NCBI GenBank assembly: GCA_017405115.1
Contig: JAFRBA010000188.1
Location: 1 to 47,323 of the forward strand
DNA: 47,323 nucleotides
Origin: Kiritimatiellia bacterium
GTDB taxonomy: Bacteria; Verrucomicrobiota; Kiritimatiellia; RFP12; UBA1067
Direction: 5' to 3'
A program made the translations under genes and the position numbers. Within the stretch, counting starts at the first letter, position 1; the number at the start of each line of letters is the position of its first letter. The notes beneath the pieces are model-generated. The model made no database searches. It saw only the letters and a program-made list of their open reading frames with translations, and had not been told where the DNA came from. Shown here piece by piece: positions 1,015 through 45,251 of the stretch.

Positions 1015-4000
1015 TTATATCCCAATTTTACCGGAAACGGGATTCCACGTTTCGGTTCGACCGTCGGGGAAAACGACTTCGAAAAGCGATTGCTCCGTAA
1101 AGCGGATGCACGTGCCGTCGGGAAGTATGCGCGTATCGGTGCGGCCGTCCGCCGGACGGCCCTGCTGCAGCATGAAGTTGCAGCGCCGTAGATATGGGAC
1201 GAGCTTCTTCATCTCGGCGGCATTTCTGCTGCGCCTGTCGAAGAACGTGCCGAACCAGGGCCTGACCGGCGGCTCGGTCTCATCGCCCGGCTGGGAGATG
1301 ACCACGTGCAGAATAGTCGCGTTGACGCCCTTCCTGAAGAACTTGTCGGCGTATGGCTTAAGCGACGCGAACGACCAGTCGTCCTTCGCGAATTTCGTCC
1401 AGCTTCCGGCCGTGAAGCTCTCCGCGTAGATCTTGTTCTTTCCGCCAAGGCGCGCCGCGCCAAGCGCCGCCTTGACCTCCTTCGCGCGCTCGTTCTTCGG
1501 CTCGCCCGCCCAGAACTCGGCGGACACCTCATCCGCCGCCGCGCCGTATGTCGCCGAATCGCCGTCCCATCCACCGCGCGAATGCGAATACGGCTCGCAC
1601 CACGTGATGAGTCCGTTCTCGTGCGCGCACCGCGTCAGCTCGCCCATGTACTCCTCGACGATTATGTCCGAGAGTTTTCGCGGATCGCCTTCCGGCTTCA
1701 CGACACGTCCGCGCTCCCAGCTGTCAACGACGACGGTAGTGAGCGTCGGACGCTCGGCAGGCGGTATGCGGCGGAGTATGTCGCCGACGAAGGCGTCGAA
1801 GTGACGCCGCACAGCCGAGCGATTCGTCTTGTCCACCTCATAGCCCGTGGCGGCTGGCGAGCAGGGTCCGTTCTCGGGATACGTTCCGTCGGGCGCGATC
1901 TGCGCGTCTTCCTTCGTGACCCACGGTCCGCCCGACTGCGACCAACCGGGACAGTTGAAGACGCCCATCTCGATGCCGAGCTCGCCGGCGGTCTTGAACG
2001 CCGTCCTTAGGCAGCGCCACCATTTCTCGCTTCTGAACGTGCAGTCGCCGAACTGCTGCCCTTCCCACGGATCCTCGAACCGCGTGCGGTTGCGGATGTC
2101 CGTCGCGAGAAAGGCGCGCGTAATGCCGTTCTCCTTCATCCACTTAAGGTCCTTCTTCACCCCTTCCTCATCGACGCGCTCGTTCACCCAGTAGTAGTAG
2201 CAACCGATCTTCACGTCCGGCGGCGGATTCGCAAACCCCTCCCTAAGCGCAGTTTCGCATGGCGAAGAAGCCTGCTTTATGGAGACTTTCGCCTCGCCGT
2301 CATCGTATGACTTGAAGAACGGACGGAACGGCTGTGCGGCACCCGGATGGCACGTTACCGGAACAAGCGTGAAGCCGCCGCGCAGTTTCCCGCCCGCGAC
2401 TATTTCATTGGGAAGCCCCGCTCCCGCTTTGGCGGCAATCAGGCTGACATCGTCTATCCGGCAAGGCGCGGTTGCCACGAATTCCACCACATGCGTTCCG
2501 TTTGTCACGCAGACGGATTCTTCATGCCTCTGCCATCCCTTCCCGTCATCACGCCAATAGCGCAGCATGTAGTTCCCATTTGGAATGTCTTCTATTTTCT
2601 GAAAGGCCCTGCGCGGGAACGGCGCGCCCAGACTGAGGGCGAACTTGCCGGTCACAAACGCCTTGTCACAGGTCTTGTTCGTCGCGTTGAGAAATCCGCC
2701 CGCCGGTTCTACTGTCCAGCCGGAAACGAAATCCTGATCGGGCTTATGATGAATCGGAATCTGCCGACGGTCTGCATCGAACGAGCCGTTGCGCACGTAG
2801 TTGTTTCCCGAACCAACCGCCCAGCGACCTGTCGCGGCATCTAGCGTCCACTCCGACAGCGAATTGAACACCGGCTCGTCTCCGTCGAAGGAAAGCGGCG
2901 TCCAGACGTTGAAGCCGATTCCGTTGTCCGCGAACTGAGTCCAGCGGTCTCCGCAGAACACCACCGTTTCCTGTTCCGCGCCGCGCACCGTCACGAAAAA
3001 TCCAGTCTGAGAGACGTGGCAATAGTCCTCTACGGCATTGCGCATGAGAAACATATCCCCGTCCGACGACTTGCGATACGGCCCCATCGGCGAATCCGCA
3101 ACCATCCAGTAGGCGCGCGAACCATCCCAGCCGTAGAGATCGGAGGCGCAGAGGTAGTATTTGCCGCGATGCATGAACATGCAGTTCCCTTCGCGCCCGT
3201 GCCCGGCGAAGACAAGCCGCGGGGCACCCACGAATGCGCGTCCGTTCCGATAGCCAAGATCCGCGACATAAGTCTTGTCGCGTCCATGTGGCTTGGAAAA
3301 GACGAGATAGCCCTTTCCGTGGATGTCGTCGTAGAAGACGGACTGGTCGCCGGTCGTTCGGTAGCCGGTGCTCGCGCTCATGTCAACGCCTTCCTGAAAG
3401 ACGAACGGTCCGCGCGGCGAATCGGCAACCGCCAGCAGCACGCCGCCCATGTATTGCATCGCGAGGACGAACTTCCCCTCGGACGGAACGGCTGCGACTC
3501 CGACGCGACCGAACCAGCGGCCGTGCGCTTCGCTCTCCGTCCCCTCGCCGGCATAGACGATCCCCTCGTCGCGCCAGTTCGCCAGATCGTCGCTTGAATA
3601 GCACGTCACGCCGACAAATGTCGTATGCAGCCCACCGACATCGACCCGAAACGCCGAGTCGAACCGCACACGCTCGGCTTCTTCGTACCTGCAGCCGTAC
3701 CAGTACCATCGACCTTCATAGAAATAGCATCCGCCGCCATTCGAATAAATCGGCTTGCCATCGACCGTGTTCCACCATGCGTCATTGCGAATGATACGCG
3801 CGACATCACCGCTTTCGGATTTCTGTGCAGACTCCGCTGTACTTGCGACTTTTACAAAACGGCTTTCGCCGGGAGGGATGACGACGGACGATTCTGTAGT
3901 CTGGCAGCGCGTCCAGGGATCGATAACGACAGCTGACTCTCCGCCGAGATCGACTTTGACCTCATGCTCGGTATCATTCGCGATAAATGCAAGTTCCTCT

Positions 4001-5883
4001 CCGCTCGGGAGGAGGCGCGAGATGTGCGGCAGATTAAGCCGACGCGCGGGCGGCGTTCCTGCGAGTGTGCGTCCTTCGCTGTCAACGACATAGCCGTAGC
4101 GTATTCCCTCAGGCGTCGTCCAGGCTTCCGCCGTCTTCGTCATTCGCGCGGCGGCATCGCCCGTCGCAAAATCCCAGTCAAGTCCGTCCAGCGCCTTCGG
4201 CACTTTGGACGCGATGATCTTGACCGGAACATCGTCGCCCGCGTAAAAGAGCGCCTCGGGCGCAGGCTCGCCCTGGCGCAGCATCCACGAGCAGAAGGCG
4301 ATATAGTCCCAGAACGGACGCGACCCCTCCCACCACGGATTGCTTCTGTTCAGACCGTATTCGCGCGGACCCGTCAGCGCCTTCACGCCGCAGTCCTTCT
4401 TCGGCAGATGCGGAACGGCGCAGGCCGTCATTGCATTCACGCCGAAGGCGAATGCAAGGTCGCAGCGGCGGCGCAGCTCGGGAATGGTCATCTTGTACGG
4501 AGCGTCCGTCATCGCCTCCGCGCTTGCGATCTTCTTCCCGTAGAGATGCGCGGCACTCGACGTATCCTTCACATCGTATGAGCCGAATTTCTGGTAGCCC
4601 CAGAACTCCCCTTCCGGAATCGACACGTATTTCTTCGAGAACACGGAATCCGCGATCATGAACATGCCTCCGCCCGTCTGCGCGGTGAACGACAATCCCT
4701 CGTCGCGGCAGAGGCGGTCGAATGTTCCGTAGTAGCGCTCGGCGATCAGTTCCACACACGTCCTGCGGAAGTCGGCAAGAACATCCTCGGCGTTCTCAGC
4801 AACGCAATAGCCCGCCATCAGCGGCAGATACGGGCGGAAGTCGTACCCACGCCGCCGCGCGAATTCCTTGAGCATGTCGTCCGTCCAGTTCTGCGCACCA
4901 GCCTCGTGGCTGTCTAAGATTATGCCGGCGAGCGGAATCCCTTTCGATTTTAGCCTGTCTATGATGCGCTTCGTATACGACTTCCAGTGCAGTTCCGCCG
5001 CCGCGACGCTCATCTTGTCGCATTCAAGCCCCATAGCCTCTGGACGTCCGTGCTTTGTGCGTCCGCCCGTCGGCACTGCGACAAAACGCAGCACCTTCCA
5101 GCGTCCCGCAGGCAGTTCGCATTTGAGCCTGCTATCGGACTCGTCGAAGCACTCCGTCACGTCGCACACGGTCTTTGGATCGATGCAGACCGGCGTGTCG
5201 CCGCGCGGGACGAAATCGACGACCGCCGCCGTCTTCGCCTGCCAGCGCGGAATCTTCGGAAGTGAATTTGTGACGGCCTTGAACGTCTTTTCACGATAGC
5301 CGTACATTCCGCCCGGATGCTGCATCGTGCTGGCGAGCCCCTTTTCGTGTCCGGCATACTCCATATCGACGAACATTCCGTCTGCTTCCGGTAGTGGAAT
5401 CGCGAGCACGGCGACGGTCTTTTGCCAGCCGCGATCCTTCGCGACAGGGAGCGAGAGCGTCACCTTGCCGCCGTTCGTGTCGCGGTCGATTACGACGAGC
5501 GTTTTCATGGCGTGCGCTGGATCGATCCACGGGCCGCCTGCAACATATCCGTTACCCACAGCCGTCTCGAATGTCAGCCCAAGCCGAGACGCCTCGGACG
5601 CGGCGAATTCGAGTCCGTCCCACCACGCATCGCTCCACAGCTTTTCCGCGTTCGGATTCTCCCCATGATACTGGTCGTAGTACACAACTCCGCCGAAACC
5701 GACGCGCTTCATCGCCTCTGCGTCCGCCGTGATCCCCTCGTGTGTCGTCTCGGTCTGTCCGAAGAACCACCACGCCTTCGGACGGCAGTCGTCGGGGATA
5801 TGGCCTGCGCGCTGCGCCTCAGACGCCGCGATTGCCGCAGCGGCAATTACGACAAAGTATGCGCATGAAAGAATCTTATTCAT
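1015..5883 (-). CDS. Secreted three-module glycosidase: GH106 - GH43 - GH106-like
   Basis: One uninterrupted frame of 1622 residues with a signal peptide (MNKILSCAYFVVIAAAAIAA). Residues ~25-680 match GH106 alpha-L-rhamnosidases: K-A-W-W-F-F-G-Q-T, G-G-V-V-Y-Y-D, D-S-H-E-A-G near 324 with N-W-T following, and S-A-E-A-M-T near 453. Residues ~695-1025 match GH43 of the galactanase-like group (D-G-K-P-I-Y-S-N-G-G-G, then W-Y-W-Y-G). Residues ~1030-1165 look like a carbohydrate-binding beta-sandwich (N-Y-V-R-N-G-S-F-D). Residues ~1213-1622 are a second, shorter GH106-like domain that keeps both motifs (D-S-W-E-R-G near 1387, A-E-S-F-T near 1486). Together they imply attack on a rhamnose- and galactose/arabinose-containing plant polysaccharide. 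It is divergent from the AraC gene and shares its operator; the start is supported by a -10 6 nt upstream. Exact linkages are not predictable. Confidence 0.85.
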   Translation of the reverse strand: MNKILSCAYFVVIAAAAIAASEAQRAGHIPDDCRPKAWWFFGQTETTHEGITADAEAMKRVGFGGVVYYDQYHGENPNAEKLWSDAWWDGLEFAASEASRLGLTFETAVGNGYVAGGPWIDPAHAMKTLVVIDRDTNGGKVTLSLPVAKDRGWQKTVAVLAIPLPEADGMFVDMEYAGHEKGLASTMQHPGGMYGYREKTFKAVTNSLPKIPRWQAKTAAVVDFVPRGDTPVCIDPKTVCDVTECFDESDSRLKCELPAGRWKVLRFVAVPTGGRTKHGRPEAMGLECDKMSVAAAELHWKSYTKRIIDRLKSKGIPLAGIILDSHEAGAQNWTDDMLKEFARRRGYDFRPYLPLMAGYCVAENAEDVLADFRRTCVELIAERYYGTFDRLCRDEGLSFTAQTGGGMFMIADSVFSKKYVSIPEGEFWGYQKFGSYDVKDTSSAAHLYGKKIASAEAMTDAPYKMTIPELRRRCDLAFAFGVNAMTACAVPHLPKKDCGVKALTGPREYGLNRSNPWWEGSRPFWDYIAFCSWMLRQGEPAPEALFYAGDDVPVKIIASKVPKALDGLDWDFATGDAAARMTKTAEAWTTPEGIRYGYVVDSEGRTLAGTPPARRLNLPHISRLLPSGEELAFIANDTEHEVKVDLGGESAVVIDPWTRCQTTESSVVIPPGESRFVKVASTAESAQKSESGDVARIIRNDAWWNTVDGKPIYSNGGGCYFYEGRWYWYGCRYEEAERVRFDSAFRVDVGGLHTTFVGVTCYSSDDLANWRDEGIVYAGEGTESEAHGRWFGRVGVAAVPSEGKFVLAMQYMGGVLLAVADSPRGPFVFQEGVDMSASTGYRTTGDQSVFYDDIHGKGYLVFSKPHGRDKTYVADLGYRNGRAFVGAPRLVFAGHGREGNCMFMHRGKYYLCASDLYGWDGSRAYWMVADSPMGPYRKSSDGDMFLMRNAVEDYCHVSQTGFFVTVRGAEQETVVFCGDRWTQFADNGIGFNVWTPLSFDGDEPVFNSLSEWTLDAATGRWAVGSGNNYVRNGSFDADRRQIPIHHKPDQDFVSGWTVEPAGGFLNATNKTCDKAFVTGKFALSLGAPFPRRAFQKIEDIPNGNYMLRYWRDDGKGWQRHEESVCVTNGTHVVEFVATAPCRIDDVSLIAAKAGAGLPNEIVAGGKLRGGFTLVPVTCHPGAAQPFRPFFKSYDDGEAKVSIKQASSPCETALREGFANPPPDVKIGCYYYWVNERVDEEGVKKDLKWMKENGITRAFLATDIRNRTRFEDPWEGQQFGDCTFRSEKWWRCLRTAFKTAGELGIEMGVFNCPGWSQSGGPWVTKEDAQIAPDGTYPENGPCSPAATGYEVDKTNRSAVRRHFDAFVGDILRRIPPAERPTLTTVVVDSWERGRVVKPEGDPRKLSDIIVEEYMGELTRCAHENGLITWCEPYSHSRGGWDGDSATYGAAADEVSAEFWAGEPKNERAKEVKAALGAARLGGKNKIYAESFTAGSWTKFAKDDWSFASLKPYADKFFRKGVNATILHVVISQPGDETEPPVRPWFGTFFDRRSRNAAEMKKLVPYLRRCNFMLQQGRPADGRTDTRILPDGTCIRFTEQSLFEVVFPDGRTETWNPVSGKIGI

Positions 5884-14355: not shown

Positions 14356-15391
14356 GCTCGCACGTGTCCTCGGCGGAACGCTGGAGGGAGACGACGTCGA
14401 GCTCGCGGCCTGCGGCGGGCTTGAGGAGGCCCGCCCAGGTGACCTGAGCTTCTGTAAGGACACAAAGCACGTCAAGCTCGTCGAGTCCACGAAGGCATCC
14501 GCAGTGCTTCTGCCGCCGGAATGGGACCGCGGTGCCCCGTGCTCCGTCATCCGCGTCGCCGACCCGGACCGCGCCTGCATGGCCGCCGCGCGCATATTCG
14601 CGCCGCCAGAGCCGGTGCGCACGCCCGGAGTTCACCCGACGGCGATCGTAGACCCGTCAGTTCGCCTCGGATCCGGCGTCCACGTGGGCGCCCTTACCGT
14701 CATAGAGAAAGGCGCCGTGATAGGCGACAACGCCGTGATAGAGGCCCAGGTCTTCATAGGCGAGGGCTGCAAGGTCGGCGCGGGGACCCATGTCTATCCG
14801 CAGGTGACGCTGCGCGAGGGCACGGTCGTCGGGCGCGACTGCATCCTCCACTGCGGCGTGCGGCTCGGCGGCGACGGCTACGGCTTCACGAACGGACGCC
14901 GCGAGGACGGCTCCATATTCATCGAGAAGATTCCCCAGCTCGGCATCGTCGAAATCGGGGACGGGGTGGAGATCGGCTCGAACACGACAATCGACCGCGC
15001 GCGGATTGGCCGCACATACATCGGCCCGATGACGAAGATCGACAACCTCGTGCAGGTCGGCCACAACGTAAAGATCAAGGGCTACTCCGGGCTCATAGCC
15101 CAGTCCGGCGTCGCCGGCTCCACGGAGATCGGGGCAGGATGCCTCATCTGGGCGCAGGCCGGGATATCCGGGCACATCAAGATAGCGGACGGCGTGCAGG
15201 TCGGCCCCCAGGCGGGCGTGCCGCAGTCTCTCGACGGCTCGCTCAAGTACGTCATAGGCGCGCCTGCGATGTCAATGAAGGACCTCGCCGCAATCACGCT
15301 CGCCCCGAAGATGATTGCCAAGCTCAAGGCCGAAGTCAAGGCGCTCAGGGCGGAGCTCGCGGCGCTTGGCAAGGCGCAGGGGGCTACATGA
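14342..15391 (+). CDS. lpxD: UDP-3-O-acylglucosamine N-acyltransferase LpxD
   Basis: A 349-residue protein. The N-terminal uridine-binding domain (1-100) contains G-G-L-E-E-A-R-P-G-D-L-S-F. The left-handed beta-helix of hexapeptide repeats (about 105-310) includes the catalytic-His region V-Q-V-G-H-N-V-K-I-K near 240, and the C-terminus is a helix. It adds the N-linked acyl chain in lipid A synthesis, so the organism makes lipid A. It overlaps skp by 14 bp and aroQ by ATGA at its end, indicating one operon. Confidence 0.95.
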   Translation: MKASELARVLGGTLEGDDVELAACGGLEEARPGDLSFCKDTKHVKLVESTKASAVLLPPEWDRGAPCSVIRVADPDRACMAAARIFAPPEPVRTPGVHPTAIVDPSVRLGSGVHVGALTVIEKGAVIGDNAVIEAQVFIGEGCKVGAGTHVYPQVTLREGTVVGRDCILHCGVRLGGDGYGFTNGRREDGSIFIEKIPQLGIVEIGDGVEIGSNTTIDRARIGRTYIGPMTKIDNLVQVGHNVKIKGYSGLIAQSGVAGSTEIGAGCLIWAQAGISGHIKIADGVQVGPQAGVPQSLDGSLKYVIGAPAMSMKDLAAITLAPKMIAKLKAEVKALRAELAALGKAQGAT

Positions 15392-15816
15392 GGCTCCTGG
15401 TCGTCAACGGGCCGAACCTCAACCTGCTCGGCGTGCGAGAACCCGACCTCTACGGACGCGGCACCTACGCGGAGCTTGTGGCGTTCGTCAGGGGCGTCGC
15501 GGCCGAGTCCGGCGTCGAGGTCGAAGTGCGCCAGTCGAACCACGAGGGCGACATCGTGGACTGGATCCAGGAGTGCCCCGGGAAGTTCGACGCGCTCGTC
15601 CTAAACGCCGCGGCGTACACCCACACGTCCGTCGCGATACTGGACGCCATAAAGGCGGTTCGGGTGCGCACGGCAGAAGTGCACCTCACGGAGCCGAAGG
15701 AGCGCGAGGACTTCCGCCGCGTATCCTTCGTAGGAAAAGCCGCGGAGCGGACTTTCTCCGGCCGCGGCTTCGATTCGTACGCCGACGCGATCCGCTACTT
15801 CGCTCAGAAGTCGTAG
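15388..15816 (+). CDS. aroQ: Type II 3-dehydroquinate dehydratase
   Basis: From the ATG at 15388 (overlapping the lpxD stop as ATGA) the protein has 142 residues, the usual size. It starts L-L-V-V-N-G-P-N-L-N-L-L-G-V-R-E-P-D-L-Y-G (N-P-N-L-N-L-L signature with the catalytic Tyr), continues with R-Q-S-N-H-E-G-D-I-V-D-W-I-Q, then N-A-A-A-Y-T-H-T-S-V-A-I and the His-containing E-V-H-L-T-E-P. It performs the third shikimate step. Its 3' end overlaps the convergent bamA by 13 bp. Confidence 0.95.
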   Translation: MRLLVVNGPNLNLLGVREPDLYGRGTYAELVAFVRGVAAESGVEVEVRQSNHEGDIVDWIQECPGKFDALVLNAAAYTHTSVAILDAIKAVRVRTAEVHLTEPKEREDFRRVSFVGKAAERTFSGRGFDSYADAIRYFAQKS

Positions 15817-29987: not shown

Positions 29988-32684
29988 TCACTCGTTGGTT
30001 GTTTCCGTCCAGATGACTCTGACGGTGCCATATAGCCCAGATGGAAGAAGTGGATGATCCTTGTCGAATGGATTGACACTTGTGGATGTGTTGGCAATCC
30101 GTCTTTCAGGCGGAAGTGCGGCATCACCGATGAGCCGGTTTGGCCAAAGATTCACGACTTCTATCTCCAGCGCATTGCCCTTTCCCTTCAGCTTTGGCAC
30201 AGTAACGGCATAAGGCGGAGTCCATGCGATGCCCAGCTCCTGCCCATTGAGCGACACACGCGCAACGTCTCGAAGATTTCCAAGGTCGATTTCGACTGGC
30301 AAACCGACCGGGCAGCCATGAGGCGCATCGAATGTCTTGCGATAGATTGCCGTTCCAGAATAATGGCGAATGGCTGAGTCTTCATGCTGCGTCCAATCCA
30401 TAAGTAACTGGAACACGACCGGTCCTTGTGGTCCGCCCCACTTCGGATCAAAAAAGACACTCCAGTCACCAGGCAGCTCAGCCGACGATCTGCACGTGCC
30501 TTCCGCCGCTGGTGGCGACAGCATTGAAGCGGCTTCATGATTCAGAAACACGACGAATGTCGATCCGTTTGCGGGCAAGCGCAGATGAACACGCGTCGTG
30601 CGGCCAGAAGACACGGCATTCGCCAACACCCTTCTCCCGACAACAGCGTCCCAGCACTCCACGCGAGCAGCGGCAGACTGCCTGAAAGCGACTGTGATGT
30701 TCCGCAAAAGATTCGTCAGGTTTGCCACAAAGTAAACATCGCCTTCAGGAAGAATTCGGTGTATCCAATCTATGCAAGCCCTGCTGTCATCTTCTTCCAC
30801 CCGGAAGTCCTGGGGCAATGAACCAAGGTCCAAGAAGCGTTTCATGTCGCCGCGCGTCCGCAGGATGGTCGCACCGCTTCGTTCAAGCTCAGTCAGCTTG
30901 TGCACCGCCTCTTCAGGGATCGGATGGATGACTGGCGGCAACTTTTTTTCGAGAGGAGGCAGTCGTCCGGGCTTCATCCGTGCGTTCTTTGGGTTTGCGT
31001 CGGAGAGAAAAACGGCTTTATAGCGCATGCCTGACGGCAAGACGATTTCATTCCCTTCCACTCTGGCACGAAGAAGCATTTCCGTCGGACACAAATCGTA
31101 GTCATACCCAGGGCCAAATCCATCCTCTGGACGCTTCATGCCGAGAAACAGATTTATCGCGTCACCAGCGTAAAGCAGGCAATCTGCGGCGAAGCGCCCA
31201 CGGGAGAGCATCCACGAGCAGCGGGCGAAATAGCGATTCATGGGCGCCGAATACTTCCACCATGTCACCTTCGGGCTGTAGTAGGCTCCGGCGCGGCGCG
31301 TATCGCCGGGCAGTTCGTTCGGATTTATGGACATGAGCATGCCGTGGTAGCAGACACGCGTGAGTCCTTCGCAGAACGCGCGGTCCGCGCACGGCTTGAA
31401 CATCGCGGGCGACTCCTCCCAGTGTGTGCCCATCGTGGTGAACGCCTCGCTTTCCACCGCCGGTATGCCGTACACGTGCGCCGCAGTCGCGCTGTCGCGC
31501 AGCATGAAACGCTGGCTGTCTTCTGGACGGTGGGGACTCGGCATCCAGAACTCCCCCATGGCCACGTCCGCCCGCCCCTGGATCATCCTGGCGTCTCCGT
31601 GGTGGAGATGGGGTCCGCACCCTTCGGTGCTAGACAAAAGCCCATGTCGGTTCGCCACCTCCTTCTGGTAGGCGTAGTGGTTCTCGGCGATCAGTTCTCC
31701 GACGGTCACGTTCCAGTCACGGGCAAACTGCCTTGACCGCTTGCTGGAGATCATCTTCACGCCCGCCTTGACGGGCAACATCGGAAGGAAGTCGTACCCG
31801 CGGCGTTTGCGGAACTCCTCGGCGAAGTTCCATGTCCAGTTGATGGTTCCTGCCTCCCAGCTGTCGCACCAGACTCCCTTGATCGCCGAGCGATCCTCCG
31901 GGGTGAGCTTTTCCAGAAGAGGAGCCACGGTCTTCGACCAATGGTCGTCAAACGCCTCCCTGCTCATGTGGTCGATGAAGCATCCGGCGAAACCGAACTT
32001 CTTCGGCACCGCGCCTGCGCGGATGACCGTCCATTTGCCGGCGCGCGGCGGAGTCCAGACGAAATCGCCGGACGCCTTGTCCAGAAACTTAGACACGTCC
32101 ACGACATCCTCGACCGCCACGTAGCCTTCTTTCTCCGGCACGGCAAGCGCGACGACGTCCCAATACCGCATCGGCGAGCCGTCGGCGTTCTTGGGCGTCT
32201 CTTTCGCGGCCTTCTTCGGCAGCATGGCGCGAATGACACCGTCCGGGCCGGGCTCCACATGTACGCTCGTCAGCAGCAGCTCCTTCTGCGCATGCTCAAG
32301 AGGACAGTCGCTGTTGCCGCAGCCTCCGGGGCCGATCATGATCCACACCCCGAGCCCAAGCCGATGCGCCTCGCGAAGCGCCCATACGATCCGGTCGGCC
32401 CTGACGCCATGCATCTTCCCCTTGAGCGAGGTGTCGCCGTACGGGCTCTTCGCCGACATGTCGGCACCGATGCCTATCATCGTAAAGGCGGATATCCCGA
32501 CCTTCGCGAACTCCTCTAGATCGCTAGTGATGACCTCGCGGGAGCACTTCTCCCCGAGGTTGAAAACCCAGATCGACGGATAGTTGTCCTTCGGCGGCGA
32601 GATAAACCCGTCAAGCAGAGAAATATCGTCCGCCCGAAGCGACATCGCCGACAAAACAGCAATAAGCACGAACCGAAGCTTCAT
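29988..32684 (-). CDS. Secreted GH106 alpha-L-rhamnosidase
   Basis: From the ATG at 32684 (signal peptide MKLRFVLIAVLSAMSLRA) the protein has 898 residues, close to full length for the family. GH106 marks are L-E-E-F-A-K-V-G-I-S-A-F near 36, W-C-D-S-W-E-A-G-T-I-N-W-T near 273 and A-V-E-S-E-A-F-T near 410; the two Glu-bearing motifs are those holding the acid and base in the family. The C-terminal ~150 residues form a GH2-type jelly roll (I-Y-R-K-T-F, V-S-L-N-G-Q-E-L-G-I-A-W-T-P-P). It removes terminal L-rhamnose. It is the fifth gene of the operon starting at 38045, 86 bp after GH92 with no clear promoter between. Confidence 0.9.
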   Translation of the reverse strand: MKLRFVLIAVLSAMSLRADDISLLDGFISPPKDNYPSIWVFNLGEKCSREVITSDLEEFAKVGISAFTMIGIGADMSAKSPYGDTSLKGKMHGVRADRIVWALREAHRLGLGVWIMIGPGGCGNSDCPLEHAQKELLLTSVHVEPGPDGVIRAMLPKKAAKETPKNADGSPMRYWDVVALAVPEKEGYVAVEDVVDVSKFLDKASGDFVWTPPRAGKWTVIRAGAVPKKFGFAGCFIDHMSREAFDDHWSKTVAPLLEKLTPEDRSAIKGVWCDSWEAGTINWTWNFAEEFRKRRGYDFLPMLPVKAGVKMISSKRSRQFARDWNVTVGELIAENHYAYQKEVANRHGLLSSTEGCGPHLHHGDARMIQGRADVAMGEFWMPSPHRPEDSQRFMLRDSATAAHVYGIPAVESEAFTTMGTHWEESPAMFKPCADRAFCEGLTRVCYHGMLMSINPNELPGDTRRAGAYYSPKVTWWKYSAPMNRYFARCSWMLSRGRFAADCLLYAGDAINLFLGMKRPEDGFGPGYDYDLCPTEMLLRARVEGNEIVLPSGMRYKAVFLSDANPKNARMKPGRLPPLEKKLPPVIHPIPEEAVHKLTELERSGATILRTRGDMKRFLDLGSLPQDFRVEEDDSRACIDWIHRILPEGDVYFVANLTNLLRNITVAFRQSAAARVECWDAVVGRRVLANAVSSGRTTRVHLRLPANGSTFVVFLNHEAASMLSPPAAEGTCRSSAELPGDWSVFFDPKWGGPQGPVVFQLLMDWTQHEDSAIRHYSGTAIYRKTFDAPHGCPVGLPVEIDLGNLRDVARVSLNGQELGIAWTPPYAVTVPKLKGKGNALEIEVVNLWPNRLIGDAALPPERRIANTSTSVNPFDKDHPLLPSGLYGTVRVIWTETTNE

Positions 32685-32770
32685 TTTCGTTTTGTATTTT
32701 TTGCATCCCACTAACTTGTTCCTCGCCTATCCATCTTGCCACATAGACATTTCCGACTAAAGCAAGTGCG

Positions 32771-38045: not shown

Positions 38046-38097
38046 TTTACTCTCCTTTTTTTGGGTGTTGTCGCCAACCATGGCTTTGACAAGTTCA

Positions 38098-38533: not shown

Positions 38534-39496
38534 TTAGCACACCGTCAACACCGCCTTGCCGCGGTTTTCACCGCGTTCGAGGATTGCATGAGCCTCGGTC
38601 GCCTCGACGATGGGCATTACCTTGTGGACGAACGGCGCGAACTTCCGCGCCTCGAACGCCGGCCAGACGTCGCGGACGAGCCCGGCAAGAATCTGGGCTT
38701 TCTCCTCGCTCGTGCGGCTGCGCAACGTCGAGCCGATCACGCGCAGGTTATTGCGCCAAAGAAGATTGACATCAAGCGTCGTCTCGGGGCCTGCCATCGA
38801 CGCAAGTGATATCCACCTTCCGCGATACGGCATGGTCGCAATGCACTTGCCCATCAGCGGACCGCCCACCGGGTCGATGGCGACATTCGGCGGATTCTCC
38901 GTAAGCGTCTTCACAAGATCGTCCTTGAAGCGGTTGCTCACCACATCCGCGCCGACGCCTTTGCAGAACTCGCCGTTCTCGTCGGACGCGACCTGCGCTA
39001 CGACCTTTGCCCCGAACACGTGCTTTGCGAGCTGGATTGTCGCGACACCGAGTCCGCCCTCGCCGCCGTTGATGAAGAAGGTCTCGCCTTTCTTGATCTC
39101 GCCTACGATCTTGAGGTTGAGATATGCTGTTGCATACACCTCGGGGATGCCAGCCGCCTCCCAGAAGTCAAAGCCCTTCGGCATCGGCATTACCATTCCC
39201 TCTGGCACGACAACGCGTTCGGCATACCCGCCGCCGCCAAGGAGCGCGCATACACTGTCACCGATCTTGAAGCGTCCATTCACCGGGCACTCAAGGACTT
39301 CGCCTGCGCATTCGAGCCCAGGCCAAAGCGGCCAACCCTCCGGCGGCGCATAGACGCCCTGCCTCTGCATCAGGTCGGCGCGGTTCACTGCGCAGGCCTT
39401 CACCGCAATTTTCACGTTAAACTCGTCGTGGCATTCCGGCTCCGGCACATCCTGCCACACGAAGTTCTTATTCTCGTCAATGCACATCGCCTTCAT
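38534..39496 (-). CDS. Quinone-oxidoreductase-type MDR dehydrogenase
   Basis: From the ATG at 39496 (AAGGAGAG upstream) the protein has 320 residues. It has the PIG3/Qor-like pattern: V-K-A-C-A-V-N-R-A-D-L-M-Q-R-Q-G-V-Y near 40, P-G-L-E-C-A-G-E-V, the nucleotide motif I-N-G-G-E-G-G-L-G-V-A near 145 and the tail R-G-E-N-R-G-K-A-V-L-T-V-C. Zinc ligands are lacking, as in quinone/enone reductases that use NADPH. It is the last gene of the rhaT operon, 33 bp after the preceding gene, and may reduce or oxidise a keto or enone sugar intermediate. Confidence 0.85.
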   Translation of the reverse strand: MKAMCIDENKNFVWQDVPEPECHDEFNVKIAVKACAVNRADLMQRQGVYAPPEGWPLWPGLECAGEVLECPVNGRFKIGDSVCALLGGGGYAERVVVPEGMVMPMPKGFDFWEAAGIPEVYATAYLNLKIVGEIKKGETFFINGGEGGLGVATIQLAKHVFGAKVVAQVASDENGEFCKGVGADVVSNRFKDDLVKTLTENPPNVAIDPVGGPLMGKCIATMPYRGRWISLASMAGPETTLDVNLLWRNNLRVIGSTLRSRTSEEKAQILAGLVRDVWPAFEARKFAPFVHKVMPIVEATEAHAILERGENRGKAVLTVC

Positions 39497-39529
39497 TTCT
39501 AACTCTCCTTTGTTCAATGCTCACAAATC

Positions 39530-40576
39530 TTATCTCTCCCAGTCAAACTGCACTACCGGGAACGCCCCGCCTTTCGCGAGCCGCGAATACACTTCGCCGC
39601 ATTCCGCAGGGGAATGTACCTCTTCTACAAAGACGGAAAGGTCGATTCGCCCGAGCGCGACAAGCCGCAGAAACGCAGTCGCGTCGTCGCGCTGAGTCCA
39701 CCATCCTGGGGCAGACTCCACTTCCTTGCGTGCTATCGTGTGCGCACCAACGAGCGTCACTCCGCGCCCGTGCACCTTGTGGTAGTAGTCAATCGTGAAA
39801 TTGGAGTTCCGCGTGCAACCGAGAAGCGCGATGCGCCCGTATGGCGCGATTGCGTCAAGAACGTTGTCGAGCGCCTGGCCAACACCAGTCACCTCGATAC
39901 CGACGGCGGGGCCGGACTCCGACACGCGCCCGCCCATGACGAAACGATCAGAGCGGCACAGCGCCTTTGCCTTTTCCGCAAAGGCAGCTTCCGTCGGGTC
40001 AAGGGCGGCATCCGCGCCGAGTTCAAGCGCCCGCACGCGCTTTACCGCGTCCGGATCGGCGGCTATCACCGGCGCAGCTCCTGCTGTCCTTAGCAGCAAG
40101 ACCGCCATCTGTCCGAGTATCCCCTGCCCCATGACGATGGCACCTTCGCCGATTTCAAGCCGGCACTTGCGTATTGCAGCCATCGGGAAAGTCGCGATAT
40201 GCGCAAATGCGGCGTCAGCGAGGGAAACACCGTCCGGCACGGGATAGACGTCCTGCGCAGGGACGCAGACGAACTGCGAATGAAACGACCAGCTTGCGGC
40301 AACGCGGTCGCCGACCTTCAAGCCGCAAACTCCCTCGCCCACCTTGTCAACGACGCCTGAGCATGAATACCCGCTGCGCCTCGGCCAAGTCGTCGCATCG
40401 CCTTCGCCAAATATCCCGACGCCGCTGTCTGGAACTCCAACGAGTTTCGCGCGCTCCGTTCCGCTCGAAATGCAGCTGCGGACAAGGCGTATGCGCACTT
40501 GCCCCGGGCCTGGCTCCGGCATCGTCTCATCGACGAATTCCGCCGTATCCTTCTTTGTGAAAAGTATTGATTTCAT
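39530..40576 (-). CDS. MDR-family zinc-type alcohol/polyol dehydrogenase
   Basis: From the ATG at 40576 the protein has 348 residues. The ATG overlaps the TGA of the Gfo/Idh gene (ATGA). Marks are S-C-I-S-S-G-T-E-R-A-K-L near 35 (group often paired with Gfo/Idh oxidoreductases), V-G-D-R-V-A-A-S near 90, M-G-Q-G-I-L-G-Q-M near 150 (Rossmann) and G-R-I-A-L-L-G-C-T near 245. It probably oxidises a sugar or polyol hydroxyl with NAD(P). Substrate unknown. Confidence 0.83.
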   Translation of the reverse strand: MKSILFTKKDTAEFVDETMPEPGPGQVRIRLVRSCISSGTERAKLVGVPDSGVGIFGEGDATTWPRRSGYSCSGVVDKVGEGVCGLKVGDRVAASWSFHSQFVCVPAQDVYPVPDGVSLADAAFAHIATFPMAAIRKCRLEIGEGAIVMGQGILGQMAVLLLRTAGAAPVIAADPDAVKRVRALELGADAALDPTEAAFAEKAKALCRSDRFVMGGRVSESGPAVGIEVTGVGQALDNVLDAIAPYGRIALLGCTRNSNFTIDYYHKVHGRGVTLVGAHTIARKEVESAPGWWTQRDDATAFLRLVALGRIDLSVFVEEVHSPAECGEVYSRLAKGGAFPVVQFDWER

Positions 40577-41571
40577 AGTTCGCACATCCTCAGTGTTGTT
40601 TCATGCACCCTCAAGTCACGTTCGCTTTCCGCCGCGTCATACTTCCGTTCTCCGCGCACGATTGCCGCAAGTTCAATGAGCTGCGCGGCATAGCGGTCCG
40701 TCTGGACGCCAAACGCGACTTTGCGCGGCGCTTCGCCCTTGCGCGTCAGCGTGAGCGACAGTTCCTCGCCGTCAAAGCGCTCTATTGGACAGAGGTCAAT
40801 CGTCCCCTCCGTGCCGTCGATGCGCAACCGCCGTGTCATGAGCGCACCAGGCATGTGCGAAGACGTTCGGACGATAGAGTCCGTTCCTCCAAAGCGGAGA
40901 AACGCCGCGCCGGACGTCTTCGCCCAGGTTGGATCGCCCGAGGCCGGCCCGACGAACGCGTGCGTTTCCTTCAGTTCGCCGCGCACAACCGGCAGAACGA
41001 GATCGACCAGGTGGCAGCCGAGGTTGTAGAGAATGCCGCTCTTGAACGACGAGAGGTATTCGGCATATCCGGCGGAACCGTAGTCGTGGTTCATGTCCGC
41101 CTCGACAAACGCGACGTCGCCGACAATCCCCTTCGCCACGTTTTCCCAAATCCACTTCACGGCGGGATTGCCGCGATACATGTAGCCGATCTGTAACGGA
41201 ATGGATTTCTTGCGGCACGTCTCCACGATAGACGCATACGGCTCCATCGACTCGCCGCACGGCTTGTCGCAGTGCATGGGAATAGCGCGTGTCGCAAACT
41301 TCGCCGCGATCTCCATCAGGTCGGCGTTGGCTGTCTCGATGAAGGCAACGTCGATGTCCGTTATCGCGTCCGCTTTCTGTTCCGTCACGACACGAAATCC
41401 GCTCGCATCCACCGGACAGGCCGGATCAATGAAGTGCGGTGTCCCGCGCGGGCGATCATCGACGACGGCAACGACCTCGAAGTCGTCGCGCAGCTTGCGA
41501 AGCGTCGCGAGCTTCCCGGCGGCATGTTCGTGCGTCATGCCGTAGAACAGGGTCTTTAGCGGACGCTTCAA
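40573..41571 (-). CDS. Gfo/Idh/MocA-family sugar dehydrogenase
   Basis: A 332-residue protein starting at TTG (41571), which overlaps the stop of the dehydroquinase-like gene (TTGA) and is preceded by AAAGGAG at ideal spacing; no ATG fits as well. The N-terminal Rossmann part has the altered glycine motif Y-G-M-T-H-E-H. H-C-D-K-P-C-G-E near 100 replaces the usual E-K-P, and Y-N-L-G-C-H-L-V-D-L-V near 185 carries the catalytic-site His. These enzymes oxidise C1, C2 or C3 of sugars and inositols. Middle of the rhaT operon. Confidence 0.87.
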   Translation of the reverse strand: MKRPLKTLFYGMTHEHAAGKLATLRKLRDDFEVVAVVDDRPRGTPHFIDPACPVDASGFRVVTEQKADAITDIDVAFIETANADLMEIAAKFATRAIPMHCDKPCGESMEPYASIVETCRKKSIPLQIGYMYRGNPAVKWIWENVAKGIVGDVAFVEADMNHDYGSAGYAEYLSSFKSGILYNLGCHLVDLVLPVVRGELKETHAFVGPASGDPTWAKTSGAAFLRFGGTDSIVRTSSHMPGALMTRRLRIDGTEGTIDLCPIERFDGEELSLTLTRKGEAPRKVAFGVQTDRYAAQLIELAAIVRGERKYDAAESERDLRVHETTLRMCEL

Positions 41572-42230
41572 ACGTCACTCCTTTCAACGAAATCCCGGAT
41601 CAGCGGCTGATCATTCTTTCCGGGGAACGGACGGTGCAGGGCGAACGTCATCGCCGCGCCGTATTCGGGGCCGAGAAACCGCTGCTCGAAACCAAACGTG
41701 CCAAGTCCGAGATATATCCACGGCAAGTCGAAATCGTCGCACAGATGCGCCATGACTCGCTTCGCCTCCGCGAACTCGTCCGGCGTGTCCATGCGCGCGA
41801 CGAGCTTTGCAACATCTGCACCTGCATCACGTTGACGCCGGAATATCTTCATTGCTTCGTCGAATGGCGCAGACCGGTCAAGCAGATGTTCGCTGACAAT
41901 CACCTTCGCGCCGCGTTCCTTCGCCGCCGCAACTGCGGACGCGGAGACATCGACATACGCTGCGCCGCAGGCTGCGGCTTCCATCATCGGCCCGTCAATC
42001 GGCGGCAGACGCTTAGAATCCGAAAGGTAGTAGCAGCAGAACGAGACTGGCACGGCAACACATTCCACGAGCTTTCGATACGTGTCAGCCGTCAATGATC
42101 CCTTCGGCATTTCGCTCAGGTCGAAGATGACGGCATCCGCGCCATCGGCGACGCCAAGACGCGCCTCTTCCGCCGCTTCATCAGACGTTCGCTCCCGGAC
42201 AAGTGCAGATATTATCGTCTTGCTCTTCAC
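41568..42230 (-). CDS. Type I 3-dehydroquinate dehydratase-like Schiff-base enzyme (catabolic paralogue)
   Basis: Read from GTG at 42230 (AGAGAGG 8 nt before; begins V/M-K-S-K-T-I-I-S-A-L-V as in AroD) it has 220 residues, the AroD size. An upstream GTG at 42275 would add residues encoded by a TCTCTGCG repeat and overlap the SDR stop. AroD landmarks align in order: D-A-V-I-F-D-L, V-S-F-C-C-Y-Y, Y-V-D-V, K-V-I-V-S-E-H (catalytic His), G-A-D-V-A-K-L-V (Schiff-base Lys) and L-G-L-G-T-F-G...M-T-F-A-L...P-F-P-G-K. The R residues that bind the quinate carboxylate are not conserved (D-L-S-E for E-x-R-x-D). With AroQ present for shikimate synthesis and RhaT/dehydrogenases around it, a role on a keto-sugar acid is inferred. 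Confidence 0.75.
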   Translation of the reverse strand: MKSKTIISALVRERTSDEAAEEARLGVADGADAVIFDLSEMPKGSLTADTYRKLVECVAVPVSFCCYYLSDSKRLPPIDGPMMEAAACGAAYVDVSASAVAAAKERGAKVIVSEHLLDRSAPFDEAMKIFRRQRDAGADVAKLVARMDTPDEFAEAKRVMAHLCDDFDLPWIYLGLGTFGFEQRFLGPEYGAAMTFALHRPFPGKNDQPLIRDFVERSDV

Positions 42231-42240
42231 GCCAAACACC

Positions 42241-42264
42241 TCTCTGCGTCTCTGCGTTAAAAAA
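42241..42264. repeat. TCTCTGCG tandem element at the dehydroquinase-like gene start
   Basis: TCTCTGCG occurs twice head to tail followed by TTAAAAAA. This class of short repeat is usually intergenic. It falls between the SDR stop (42272) and the preferred GTG (42230). A degenerate relative (TTGCGCCTCGGCGTTAAAAA) is near 47115-47134. Confidence 0.5.
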
Positions 42265-42271
42265 CCCATCC

Positions 42272-43036
42272 TCACATGTCGCAGTTGTGAGGGCCCAGGA
42301 TGCGTCCGCCGTCAACCGGCATGTCTACGCCAGTCATATAGGCGGCGGTATCGGACGCGAGGAACAAAATCGCGCGGGCGATGTCGTCTGGCGATCCGCT
42401 CCAGCCCACCCACGTTCCGTCGTGCGGCCCAACGGTCTTCAGAATCATGCCCGGCGACACGCTGTTCACCGTGATGCCGCTCTTGGCGTTCTCCATCGCC
42501 AGCGTCTCGGTAAGCTCGATTACCGCAGCCTTGCATGCCGCATAGTCAGCGTATCCCGGAAGCCCCACTTCTCCGGCTATGGAGCCAAGGTTGACGATTC
42601 GCCCGTACTTGCGCTCCGCCATGTGCGGAATGACGGCCTGAAGACAGTGGACGACACCGTAGAAATTGATGTCTACCAGACGTTTGATCTCGTCGATGGG
42701 CATATCCTCGAACCGCTGGCGTCCCACAACGTCGCGATGCTCCCACACGCCCGCGTTGTTGACGAGGATGTCGATCTTCCCGAAATCGGCGAGTATTCTG
42801 CCGAACGTCTCGCGCACGGCCTCACGGTCTGTGACGTCCTGCGCGTATGCGCGAATGTCGAAACCTCGCTCCTTCAGAGGCGCGATGCGCGATTCAACGG
42901 TCTCTACTGAAATGTCCGTCGCCGCGATCTTCACTCCGGCCTCGCAGAACATCCGGCATGTCGCAAGGCCGATGTTGCCGGCCGCACCAGTCACGACCGC
43001 CACGCGGTCGTCGAACTTCAATGTCACTTCACTCAT
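42272..43036 (-). CDS. Short-chain dehydrogenase/reductase (SDR)
   Basis: From the ATG at 43036, overlapping the rhaT stop as ATGA, the protein has 254 residues. It has the classical SDR pattern: V-T-G-A-A-G-N-I-G near 16 (NAD motif), N-N-A-G-V near 90, catalytic Ser (G-S-I-A-G), Tyr and Lys (Y-A-D-Y-A-A-C-K) near 145-160, and S-P-G-M-I. It probably oxidises a sugar or sugar acid (by analogy, L-rhamnose 1-dehydrogenase or a 2-keto-3-deoxy-rhamnonate dehydrogenase); direction and substrate are inferred only from context. Confidence 0.88.
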   Translation of the reverse strand: MSEVTLKFDDRVAVVTGAAGNIGLATCRMFCEAGVKIAATDISVETVESRIAPLKERGFDIRAYAQDVTDREAVRETFGRILADFGKIDILVNNAGVWEHRDVVGRQRFEDMPIDEIKRLVDINFYGVVHCLQAVIPHMAERKYGRIVNLGSIAGEVGLPGYADYAACKAAVIELTETLAMENAKSGITVNSVSPGMILKTVGPHDGTWVGWSGSPDDIARAILFLASDTAAYMTGVDMPVDGGRILGPHNCDM

Positions 43037-44061
43037 GATGCTTTCCCCATCGAGATTATCGAAAACGCCGTGAGCAAAACAAATATGCCGCCGACAAGAT
43101 ACACTTTCGTTTTCCAACTCGTGCCCTTCCACTCGCCAGAGAAGACGCCGAACATGGTCGAGAAGAACACAGTAGAGGACATCACGACTGCGAAGGAGAT
43201 GTAGCGCATGTCGCCCATAAGAGGTTCGCCCACCTTCATCATCGTGGCGCTCATTGCCCAGACGATGCCCGCGAGCGCGGCGAAAAACCAGTTCATTCCG
43301 CCGCCCCTGAACTCGCCGAGCGATCCCTGGCGCCAGCCCTTCGCAAGACAGTACGCGGCGTTGACGAGAAAGCCGCCGCCGAGAACAAGGGACTGCACGG
43401 GAAGCCCGCGCCAGCGCGACGCGGTTCCGGCGGCCAGCGCGGCAGACTCAAGATCTATTCCGCCCTGGAGTCCAAAGTTCATTCCGGCAGACATGAGACC
43501 GGAGAAAACAGCAATCCAAATGCCTTTCTTGAAATCAAACTCCGCAACGGCCTTTCGCGCCGCCTCGCCTGTCAGTTCGCGGCTCTTGCGATGCCCCGCC
43601 GCGCCGACAAACGCAATGCCCACAAGCGTCGCCACGACGCCGGCGAGCGTAAGCACGGCATGGGCGTCTTTCACGAGGTCGGCGGCATGGCCAGACGCTA
43701 TCGGCGGAACGAGCGTCCCGACGGACGAGCAGATTCCGCATCCTATGGCGAGCCCGAGTCCGATTCCAAGATAGCGGATCATCAGCCCCCACGTAAGGCC
43801 GCCAACGCCCCACATCATACCGAACAGTGCACAGCGGACAACAATCTTCGGCGAGACTGACGAATAGACGCCAAACAGATCCGGCACAAACTCAAGAGAC
43901 AGGGCAAGAGGAAGTGCGACCATCCCGGCAACGGCATAGACGAGCCAATATGTCTCGTAAGCCCACCCCTTTACGCGGCGAAGCGGCACGGCAAAGAGCG
44001 CACCGCATAGCCCGCCAAAGGCGAAGCAAAAAGTTCCCAGCAATGGAGCAGATTCATTCAT
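43033..44061 (-). CDS. rhaT: RhaT-type L-rhamnose/proton symporter
   Basis: A 342-residue membrane protein with ten hydrophobic segments of the drug/metabolite-transporter type. It carries RhaT-specific stretches: W-G-V-G-G-L-T-W-G-L-M-I-R-Y-L-G-I-G-L-G near 90, G-T-L-V-P-P-I near 120, K-G-I-W-I-A-V-F-S-G-L-M-S-A near 185 and N-W-F-F-A-A-L-A-G near 255. Inner membrane, uptake of L-rhamnose or a related 6-deoxyhexose such as L-fucose or L-lyxose. First gene of the operon, 7 nt from a -10 (TATCAT), with the same upstream box as the glycosidase operon. Confidence 0.9.
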   Translation of the reverse strand: MNESAPLLGTFCFAFGGLCGALFAVPLRRVKGWAYETYWLVYAVAGMVALPLALSLEFVPDLFGVYSSVSPKIVVRCALFGMMWGVGGLTWGLMIRYLGIGLGLAIGCGICSSVGTLVPPIASGHAADLVKDAHAVLTLAGVVATLVGIAFVGAAGHRKSRELTGEAARKAVAEFDFKKGIWIAVFSGLMSAGMNFGLQGGIDLESAALAAGTASRWRGLPVQSLVLGGGFLVNAAYCLAKGWRQGSLGEFRGGGMNWFFAALAGIVWAMSATMMKVGEPLMGDMRYISFAVVMSSTVFFSTMFGVFSGEWKGTSWKTKVYLVGGIFVLLTAFSIISMGKAS

Positions 44062-44121: not shown

Positions 44122-45225
44122 TTACCGCGCTGTCGATCCGCGGACGACCAGCTGGGCGGCGAGCATGATGCGCCGCTTCTCTGCTTCGGGATTGTCAAAC
44201 CGCCAGAGAAGCGTCTCGAATGCGGCGCGGGCGATGTCCCTGCACGGCTGATGCACTGTCGTGAGCGCAGGCGAAACGATCGTGGCGATGTCGACATCGT
44301 TCACGCCCGTCACAAGAACGTCCTGCGGACATCTTTTCCCGATCTTCCTCAGTAGATTCAGCACATGCGCCGCGACAAGGTCGCTTGTGCAGACGACTGC
44401 ATCCGGCATAGAACCCTTCCATCGGCGCGACATGAGGACTTCATCGCTCTGCCACACATACTGCCCCGTCAGTTTCGCGCCGCGCTTCATGGCAATCGCA
44501 GAAACAAGTCCATCAAGTCTCCGCCTGACGTTGTCGTTCATGACAGACCATGTGACGAATACGATCTTCTTCGCTCCGCGTTCGATTACATGCCGCCCGG
44601 CGAACTGTCCGATTTCAAAGTTGTCGACACCAACGAAATCAAATCGATCTTCACAAGGTGTGGCCTCGACGTCGGCGTCAAGTATGACAACTGGGATGTC
44701 GGCAGACTTGAATATGCGAAGCACCTCCCAGTTCGTCTTCAAAGCGTCGTCGCCGAAATCGACTGGGTGGAACACGACGCCAGACACCTTGTCAGACACC
44801 ATTCGCCGGGCAGTCGCGACAACTACCGAATGCACCTTGTCGGAGCGGACCGACGAGATGTCGGCAAAATCTACGGAAACTCCTTTTTCCAGGCAGAGAC
44901 GCGAAAACTCCTGGCAGATCGGGGGAAATATCTCCACTTGCTTCAACATCGGCACTATGAGGCCAATGGACGTCATCCTACGCGCGACAAACGTGCCAAC
45001 GCCATTGCGGGACTTGACGAGCCGCATCTGCTTCAGGGATTCAATCGCCTTGACCGCCGTGAGATGCGACACTCCGAACCGGCGGCATATCATCTTCACG
45101 GACGGAAACGCAGAACCTGGCGCGTACTTGCCGGAAAGCACGTCCTCACGCAGCGTGTCGGCCACCTCGCGGTACTTGGGAAGTCCGCCTGAATCCTCAA
45201 CAACATCTGACCTTACCGTTCGCAT
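44122..45225 (-). CDS. GntR-type HTH / LacI-type sensor regulator of the rhaT operon
   Basis: About 367 residues. The winged helix is at ~15-80 (P-K-Y-R-E-V-A-D-T-L-R-E-D-V-L-S-G-K-Y-A-P-G-S-A-F-P-S-V, G-V-G-T-F-V-A). A LacI-type sensor starts at ~90 (I-G-L-I-V-P-M, F-V-G-V-D-N-F-E-I-G-Q-F-A-G-R-H-V, P-D-A-V-V-C-T-S-D-L-V-A-A-H-V, V-H-Q-P). The ATG at 45225 is preferred over 45234 because the -10 TATAAT covers 45233-45238. It is upstream of rhaT on the same strand. It resembles the sugar-responsive AraR architecture; the effector is likely the sugar imported by RhaT. Confidence 0.87.
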   Translation of the reverse strand: MRTVRSDVVEDSGGLPKYREVADTLREDVLSGKYAPGSAFPSVKMICRRFGVSHLTAVKAIESLKQMRLVKSRNGVGTFVARRMTSIGLIVPMLKQVEIFPPICQEFSRLCLEKGVSVDFADISSVRSDKVHSVVVATARRMVSDKVSGVVFHPVDFGDDALKTNWEVLRIFKSADIPVVILDADVEATPCEDRFDFVGVDNFEIGQFAGRHVIERGAKKIVFVTWSVMNDNVRRRLDGLVSAIAMKRGAKLTGQYVWQSDEVLMSRRWKGSMPDAVVCTSDLVAAHVLNLLRKIGKRCPQDVLVTGVNDVDIATIVSPALTTVHQPCRDIARAAFETLLWRFDNPEAEKRRIMLAAQLVVRGSTAR

Positions 45226-45232
45226 GCCGCGC

Positions 45233-45251
45233 ATTATACCGCAAACTGCGG
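45233..45251 (-). promoter_or_regulatory. Regulator promoter with CCGCA-N3-TGCGG palindrome
   Basis: The -10 TATAAT (45233-45238) directly adjoins the palindrome CCGCAAACTGCGG (45239-45251), a plausible autorepression site. The -10 lies 7 nt from the ATG at 45225. Between 45252 and 45421 I see only a twice-repeated TCATCCCCGCCGC (45280-45292, 45310-45322) and no gene. Confidence 0.5.

Follow-up and report, generated by a model that had tools for sequence, protein, structure and literature searches.

The window analyzed here, a 47,323-nucleotide stretch of DNA from a Kiritimatiellia bacterium (contig JAFRBA010000188.1), carries a block of six minus-strand genes encoding, in order, a RhaT-family symporter, a short-chain dehydrogenase/reductase (SDR), a homolog of type I 3-dehydroquinate dehydratase (AroD-like), a Gfo/Idh/MocA-family dehydrogenase (Gfo/Idh) and two medium-chain dehydrogenases (MDR1 and MDR2), with the 3' end at position 38534 (Table 1). 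The block is a conserved and apparently undescribed operon, probably catabolic, in which a dehydroquinase has been repurposed, and its host group appears to be Verrucomicrobiota-type bacteria. On balance, we lean towards the interpretation that it represents a variant of a conserved, phosphate-free pathway that breaks down sugars or sugar acids by oxidation and in which the AroD-like enzyme would carry out a Schiff-base step. The grounds for this pathway interpretation are the gene content, the co-localization of the genes, the catalytic residues, the predicted fold and the presence of a separate dehydroquinase, AroQ.

The AroD-like protein belongs to the Pfam family PF01487 (55 bits vs. a gathering score of 22.2), but scores far below the AroD equivalog TIGR01093 (32.7 bits vs. 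a cut-off of 139.3). Structure prediction, which the first-pass annotation of this DNA had proposed as a check, gave a dehydroquinase fold with a mean predicted local distance difference test score of 91, and the closest structures are solved type I dehydroquinases with their beta/alpha-barrel fold. Relatives were collected by a first protein search (35) and by a profile search (43), and residues were counted after aligning 78 members of the family with one canonical AroD (P0042). Loci L036, L037, L040 and L135-L138 had no AroD-like open reading frame (ORF) in the automatic gene choice, and are absent from the 78 sequences and from the 67-locus table. Asp114, His143, Lys170 and Arg213 are each kept in 78/78 members and Gln236 in 77/78, the window protein included, which bears out the earlier statement that the catalytic His and Lys are retained. 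Glu46 and Arg48 are found in none of the 78 members; 68 of them have Glu or Asp at position 48 and all have Tyr at position 82, while the window protein has Ile, Asp and Tyr at positions 46, 48 and 82. The quinate-binding Arg pattern had been described as lost, and this is correct for Arg48 and Arg82 of the window protein but not for Arg213.

According to PMC9902378, Arg213 and Gln236 contact the C1 carboxylate of the substrate in type I dehydroquinase, while Glu46, Arg48, Arg82 and, via a water, Asp114 contact the C4/C5 hydroxyls. Read together with these roles, the residue conservation suggests that the AroD-like enzyme retains the carboxylate clamp along with the machinery for forming a Schiff base, and that the part reading the far side of the ring is altered. 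A separate AroD-like branch (P0039, P0041 and P0043; loci L139 and L140) has the same Tyr82 signature.

The AroQ protein of the window, also seen in the first-pass annotation, matches type II dehydroquinases in the PDB, and AroQ was found in 35/41 genomes carrying the AroD-like family. Because AroQ is present both in the window and in these genomes, the AroD-like family is most likely not used for shikimate synthesis, although a biosynthetic role may apply in the six family genomes that gave no AroQ match. A biosynthetic dehydroquinase paralog sitting by chance among sugar genes would agree with the PF01487 membership and the fold, and also with the lack of an AroQ match in 6/41 family genomes (G567, G238, G190, G154, G155 and G283). 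Such a paralog is nevertheless very improbable when the low TIGR01093 score, the distribution of AroQ, the replaced substrate residues and the conserved dehydrogenase neighborhood are taken together. All told, the AroD-like protein probably serves catabolism, acting as a Schiff-base eliminase or lyase within an oxidative route for sugars.

To describe the neighborhood, partner genes of the families SDR, Gfo/Idh, MDR1, MDR2 and X338 were counted within 8 kb of the AroD-like gene in 74 loci from 70 genomes. Locus L041, from a genome with a canonical-looking AroD (G034), and L042 were excluded, whereas loci without an automatically chosen AroD-like ORF were counted. At least one partner family was present in 56 loci, at least two in 36, at least three in 24 and all five in 5, with L033 and L092 among the 74 having supplied queries and matching themselves. 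The gene set therefore recurs in other genomes, which the first-pass annotation had suggested searching for. The partner genes are on the same strand as the AroD-like gene in 135/138 cases, and a set of 26 control loci spanning 0.40 Mb, of which 20 came from operon genomes and 6 were RhaT loci, yielded a single match, to MDR1. The clustering of partners with AroD-like genes is far beyond chance. Even the distant genome G267 has SDR, Gfo/Idh, MDR1, MDR2 and AroD-like genes together, at 27-48% identity, and an SDR copy 72% identical to that of the window adjoins an AroD-like gene in L035. A cluster of LacI-type regulators occurs in 21 loci, at most six genes away in 19 and never on the AroD-like strand, and a PF00144 serine-hydrolase-type protein occurs in 6 loci. 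The X338 protein tested had weak extended-SDR matches and no match in the PDB or NCBIfam. Operon content is spread across the two large branches of the AroD-like tree, in which the subfamily of the window forms a nested group.

Two further observations concern the partner genes. The MDR2 proteins of L029 (7854-8798), L028 (12036-12803) and L037 (10823-11782) are 80-86% identical to that of the window, whereas identity drops to 26-36% for the AroD-like proteins nearby; either MDR2 is very constrained, or it has been exchanged between lineages. In the operon of genome G269, an aldo/keto reductase split over two frames (L034, 8540-9597, minus strand) occupies the place of the SDR of other operons.

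The AroD-like profile matched 14/345 genomes of the class of G001, one of them being G034, and repeating this search on ten genomes gave 0/10 matches. Within the genome contig set, no close relatives were found via this profile. A broader profile, to which a few of the strongly matching genomes had themselves contributed rows, matched 71/387 genomes from the phylum of G267; 62 of these matches reached E 1e-50 or better, and the other 9 were weak.

The layout of the block is largely as the first-pass annotation described it. The gene order is correct, and the overlaps read in the sequence are ATGA between RhaT and SDR, TTGA between AroD-like and Gfo/Idh, and ATGA between Gfo/Idh and MDR1. However, two starts had to be revised. 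The AroD-like gene was given a GTG start at 42230 instead of 42275, 41 nt past the SDR stop, since its relatives begin there in the family alignment, and the start of MDR2 is most likely the ATG at 39496. The family of every gene in the block is backed by Pfam, including two ADH_zinc_N proteins (MDR1 and MDR2). The GHE motif, which we take to be a zinc motif, is missing from both of these, while the SDR and Gfo/Idh motifs given in Table 1, presumably catalytic, are intact in the window proteins. Among PDB entries, the window SDR is best matched by xylitol dehydrogenase and acyl-carrier/hydroxyacyl types, and it was looked at as a candidate C1 sugar dehydrogenase. The RhaT-family protein is below the cut-off of its closest model, the NCBIfam RhaT equivalog (262.7 of 468 bits), and is 60% and 58% identical to RhaT homologs of L001 and L002, respectively. 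A promoter and terminator scan gave 2 and 7 sites vs. 2.4 and 8.1 in shuffled sequence, i.e., no excess, and a search for inverted repeats as operators gave no convincing candidate.

The proposed pathway would start with import of a sugar by RhaT, in the window most likely an L-rhamnose-like 6-deoxyhexose, which the SDR, Gfo/Idh and MDR1 might oxidize to a keto acid. The AroD-like enzyme would then form a Schiff base on the ketone, with the carboxylate gripped by the equivalents of Arg213 and Gln236, and would eliminate water beta to the ketone or cleave a C-C bond there. MDR2, a relative of quinone and enone reductases, might finally reduce the resulting enone. In a concrete version, an aldonate would be converted to a 4-keto-aldonate that loses its C2 hydroxyl, with the same geometry as in 3-dehydroquinate. 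The kept residues point to such beta-elimination of a hydroxyl next to a carboxylate, as in dehydroquinate, with retro-aldol cleavage as a possible alternative. Extended to the whole phylum, this would be a new type of pathway in which a dehydroquinase descendant (Tyr82, acidic residue at 48) replaces the metal-dependent aldonate dehydratase and dehydrates a keto-aldonate via a Schiff base, after which the enone would pass to a PIG3-type reductase; we put this forward tentatively, as an extension that has the chances somewhat against it.

The same elimination geometry, with a C3 ketone, a C2 proton and a C1 leaving group, would be found in a 3-keto-glycoside lyase system. Here, Gfo/Idh would oxidize C3, the AroD-like enzyme would eliminate the C1 aglycone via a Schiff base at C3, and MDR2 or an SDR would reduce the product. 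The PDB relatives of the Gfo/Idh protein fit such a system, as they include aldose-aldose oxidoreductase, L-glucose/scyllo-inositol dehydrogenase and DgpA, and the levoglucosan pathway proceeds by oxidation, beta-elimination, hydration and reduction (PMC7676230). However, the Arg213/Gln236 carboxylate clamp would have no partner in a neutral 3-keto-glycoside and no relative of a hydratase was recognized among the recurrent families, so that we consider this system unlikely. It appears more unlikely still that the substrate is a cyclitol or a cyclic acid, such as inositol, quinate or a related compound, and that the AroD-like enzyme dehydrates a cyclic keto-alcohol. The Gfo/Idh relatives do include inositol dehydrogenases, and MDR1 is related to the scyllo-inosose 3-dehydrogenase IolM, although with scores (52 bits for the window, 89 for the L085 copy) far under the cut-off of 450. 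Against this, the residues binding the quinate diol are replaced, and an inositol gene is absent from the flank families shown (25 of 91).

For the window version of the oxidative pathway, a 6-deoxyhexose is the single most likely substrate class, although we place it slightly short of an even chance. Deoxysugar gene content was seen at three loci only: the window, with RhaT and two GH106 proteins; L125, where the operon adjoins RhaA and a GH78-cluster protein; and L033, where it adjoins GH29 and GH95. RhaA was present in 29/30 operon genomes (from the 31 loci with at least two partners, minus G163, which has RhaA in the 13-genome set below) compared with 11/20 genomes without the AroD-like family, the latter being those listed without a family match, not a random sample, and slightly smaller (median 3.1 vs. 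3.5 Mb). A second, lower-scoring RhaA class was found in 20/30 operon genomes (e.g., G560, G496 and G593) and in 3/20 without the family, with a class boundary (about 535-595 bits) that was chosen after the scores were seen. In another set, 12/13 family-carrying genomes had RhaA, with G267 and G269 common to the 13- and 30-genome counts. The 58% identical RhaT homolog in L002 lies near a RhaA-like ORF, and a further ORF close to it is presumably RhaD.

Several related ideas were discarded. Replacement of RhaA and the classical route by the operon is not supported, as RhaA is present in 12/13 and 29/30 genomes. The neighborhoods of the RhaA paralogs were of no use as a substrate clue due to their diverse contexts, and a fucosidase or rhamnosidase adjoining every operon was rejected as the flanking genes vary.

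Several findings, in addition to the six genomes without an AroQ match, weigh against a shared deoxysugar or oxidative sugar pathway as proposed here. Since RhaA is found in nearly all operon genomes, cells with the operon probably have the classical rhamnose route as well, and a FucI-type isomerase is present in 6/13 family-carrying genomes. Among the loci compared, RhaT is inside the block only in the window. A RhaT scan of genome contigs gave six loci, where none of the other operon genes was found at 1e-4, and the six genomes concerned had no AroD-like match. Furthermore, 18/74 AroD-like loci lack any partner family within 8 kb and another 20 have a single one, some of these loci being on short contigs, and the SDR, as a common family, counts as a weak partner. 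The flanks vary as well, with each glycoside-hydrolase family represented by at most one protein among the families shown (25 of 91; 71 of 121 flanking proteins given). At the residue level, an Arg follows immediately after Tyr82 in 67/78 family members, and Arg82 may thus be shifted by one residue in the wider family, not lost. The window subfamily and a few others do not have this Arg, and because a loop of the wider family is missing from the window subfamily, its substrate may differ from that of the wider family.

These subfamily differences also favor a shared enzyme kit, i.e., that the AroD-like and MDR2 genes form a module that has been put to use on different sugars, with the window substrate being unrelated to the ancestral one. 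MDR2 proteins of 80-86% identity beside AroD-like proteins of 26-36%, and the variation of operon content along the AroD-like tree, would fit such reuse, while the 24/74 loci with at least three partner families together argue against it. We see the shared kit as a real possibility that still falls below even odds; as it overlaps with the oxidative pathway interpretation, the two do not exclude each other. With regard to the first-pass annotation, which proposed stepwise oxidation of an imported 6-deoxysugar followed by a Schiff-base step, the non-shikimate and probably catabolic role, the central Schiff-base enzyme and the recurring dehydrogenases are upheld, whereas the 6-deoxysugar itself rests on the three loci and the higher RhaA frequency.

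Table 1. Position and supporting evidence of the operon genes and other features of the window.
Feature	Position	Strand	Evidence
Regulator, GntR DNA-binding domain and LacI-type sugar-sensor domain, upstream of block	44122..45234	-	Pfam GntR 55 bits, Peripla_BP_3 108 bits
RhaT-family symporter	43033..44061	-	PF06379 158 bits
SDR	42272..43036	-	Pfam; intact TGAAGNIG, NNAG and YAACK motifs
Dehydroquinase-like Schiff-base enzyme (AroD-like, putative), GTG start	41568..42230	-	DHquinase_I (PF01487) 55 bits
Gfo/Idh/MocA-family dehydrogenase, TTG start	40573..41571	-	Pfam; DKP and NLGCHLVD motifs present
MDR1, medium-chain dehydrogenase without GHE zinc motif	39530..40576	-	Pfam ADH_zinc_N
MDR2, PIG3-type quinone-oxidoreductase-like reductase	38534..39496	-	TIGR02824 304 bits (cut-off 296.8); PDB quinone oxidoreductases
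GH106 alpha-L-rhamnosidase family protein, neighboring locus	29988..32711	-	PF17132 293 bits
AroQ, type II dehydroquinase (biosynthetic type), outside operon	15388..15816	+	ORF; 39 PDB sequences at E <= 1e-10, almost all carrying the name 3-dehydroquinate dehydratase
Second GH106 family protein, with GH43 stretch	1015..5883	-	PF17132 550 bits

Elsewhere in the window, GH92, GH26 and GH43 proteins are also encoded. The first-pass annotation reported that RhaA, RhaB and RhaD are lacking. For RhaA and RhaD this agrees with our search, as queries from L002 had no match among the chosen ORFs of window positions 27001-47323, the remainder being covered only via Pfam scans of larger ORFs; RhaB was not a query. 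An enolase-superfamily rhamnonate dehydratase was likewise reported as lacking, and Pfam scans of 27 window ORFs gave no match to an aldonate dehydratase of that superfamily. Other minus-strand genes include an AbiEi-type antitoxin domain protein directly upstream of the regulator (45422-46225), a formylglycine-generating-enzyme-like protein with an FGE-sulfatase domain downstream of the operon (36726-38081), and a 226-aa ORF (26615-27295) whose match to PurH is limited to the beginning of that protein (the MGS-like domain plus AICARFT_IMPCHas positions 1-64 of 311).

No description of the gene set, or of the operon in its host group, was found in the open-access literature, a scope that leaves out most subscription papers and all preprints. 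In PMC13174399, a 3-dehydroquinate dehydratase is mentioned in a figure legend alone, neighboring a pilus locus. Our results offer a testable function for a distinct dehydroquinase branch that Pfam-level annotation would label as a shikimate enzyme. If the proposed function is true, a sizeable share of the sampled phylum genomes (62/387 at E 1e-50 or better) encode the central enzyme of a sugar pathway that is undescribed and that standard pathway reconstruction misses.

Compared with known systems, the block shares a RhaT-family transporter with the RhaBAD pathway, but an isomerase, kinase and aldolase were not recognized in it. Non-phosphorylated L-rhamnose and L-fucose pathways use a dehydrogenase, a lactonase and an enolase-type dehydratase, followed by an aldolase or by a dehydrogenase and a hydrolase. 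The block resembles these in being dehydrogenase-led, in having no kinase and in its deoxysugar context. It differs in that no enolase-type dehydratase, aldolase or hydrolase was identified, that Gfo/Idh and two MDR proteins are added, and that the AroD-like protein stands in place of the dehydratase. With the levoglucosan/3-keto-glycoside pathway (PMC7676230), it shares oxidation followed by a probable beta-elimination beside the ketone, while the eliminase family is different. With AroD itself, the likeness lies in fold, Schiff-base Lys170, His143, Asp114, Arg213 and Gln236, whereas the window enzyme has Glu46 and Arg48 replaced, Tyr82, sugar-type dehydrogenases as neighbors and AroQ in the same window. 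The AroD-like enzyme is outside AroD by equivalog score and three substrate residues, yet it probably works like AroD.

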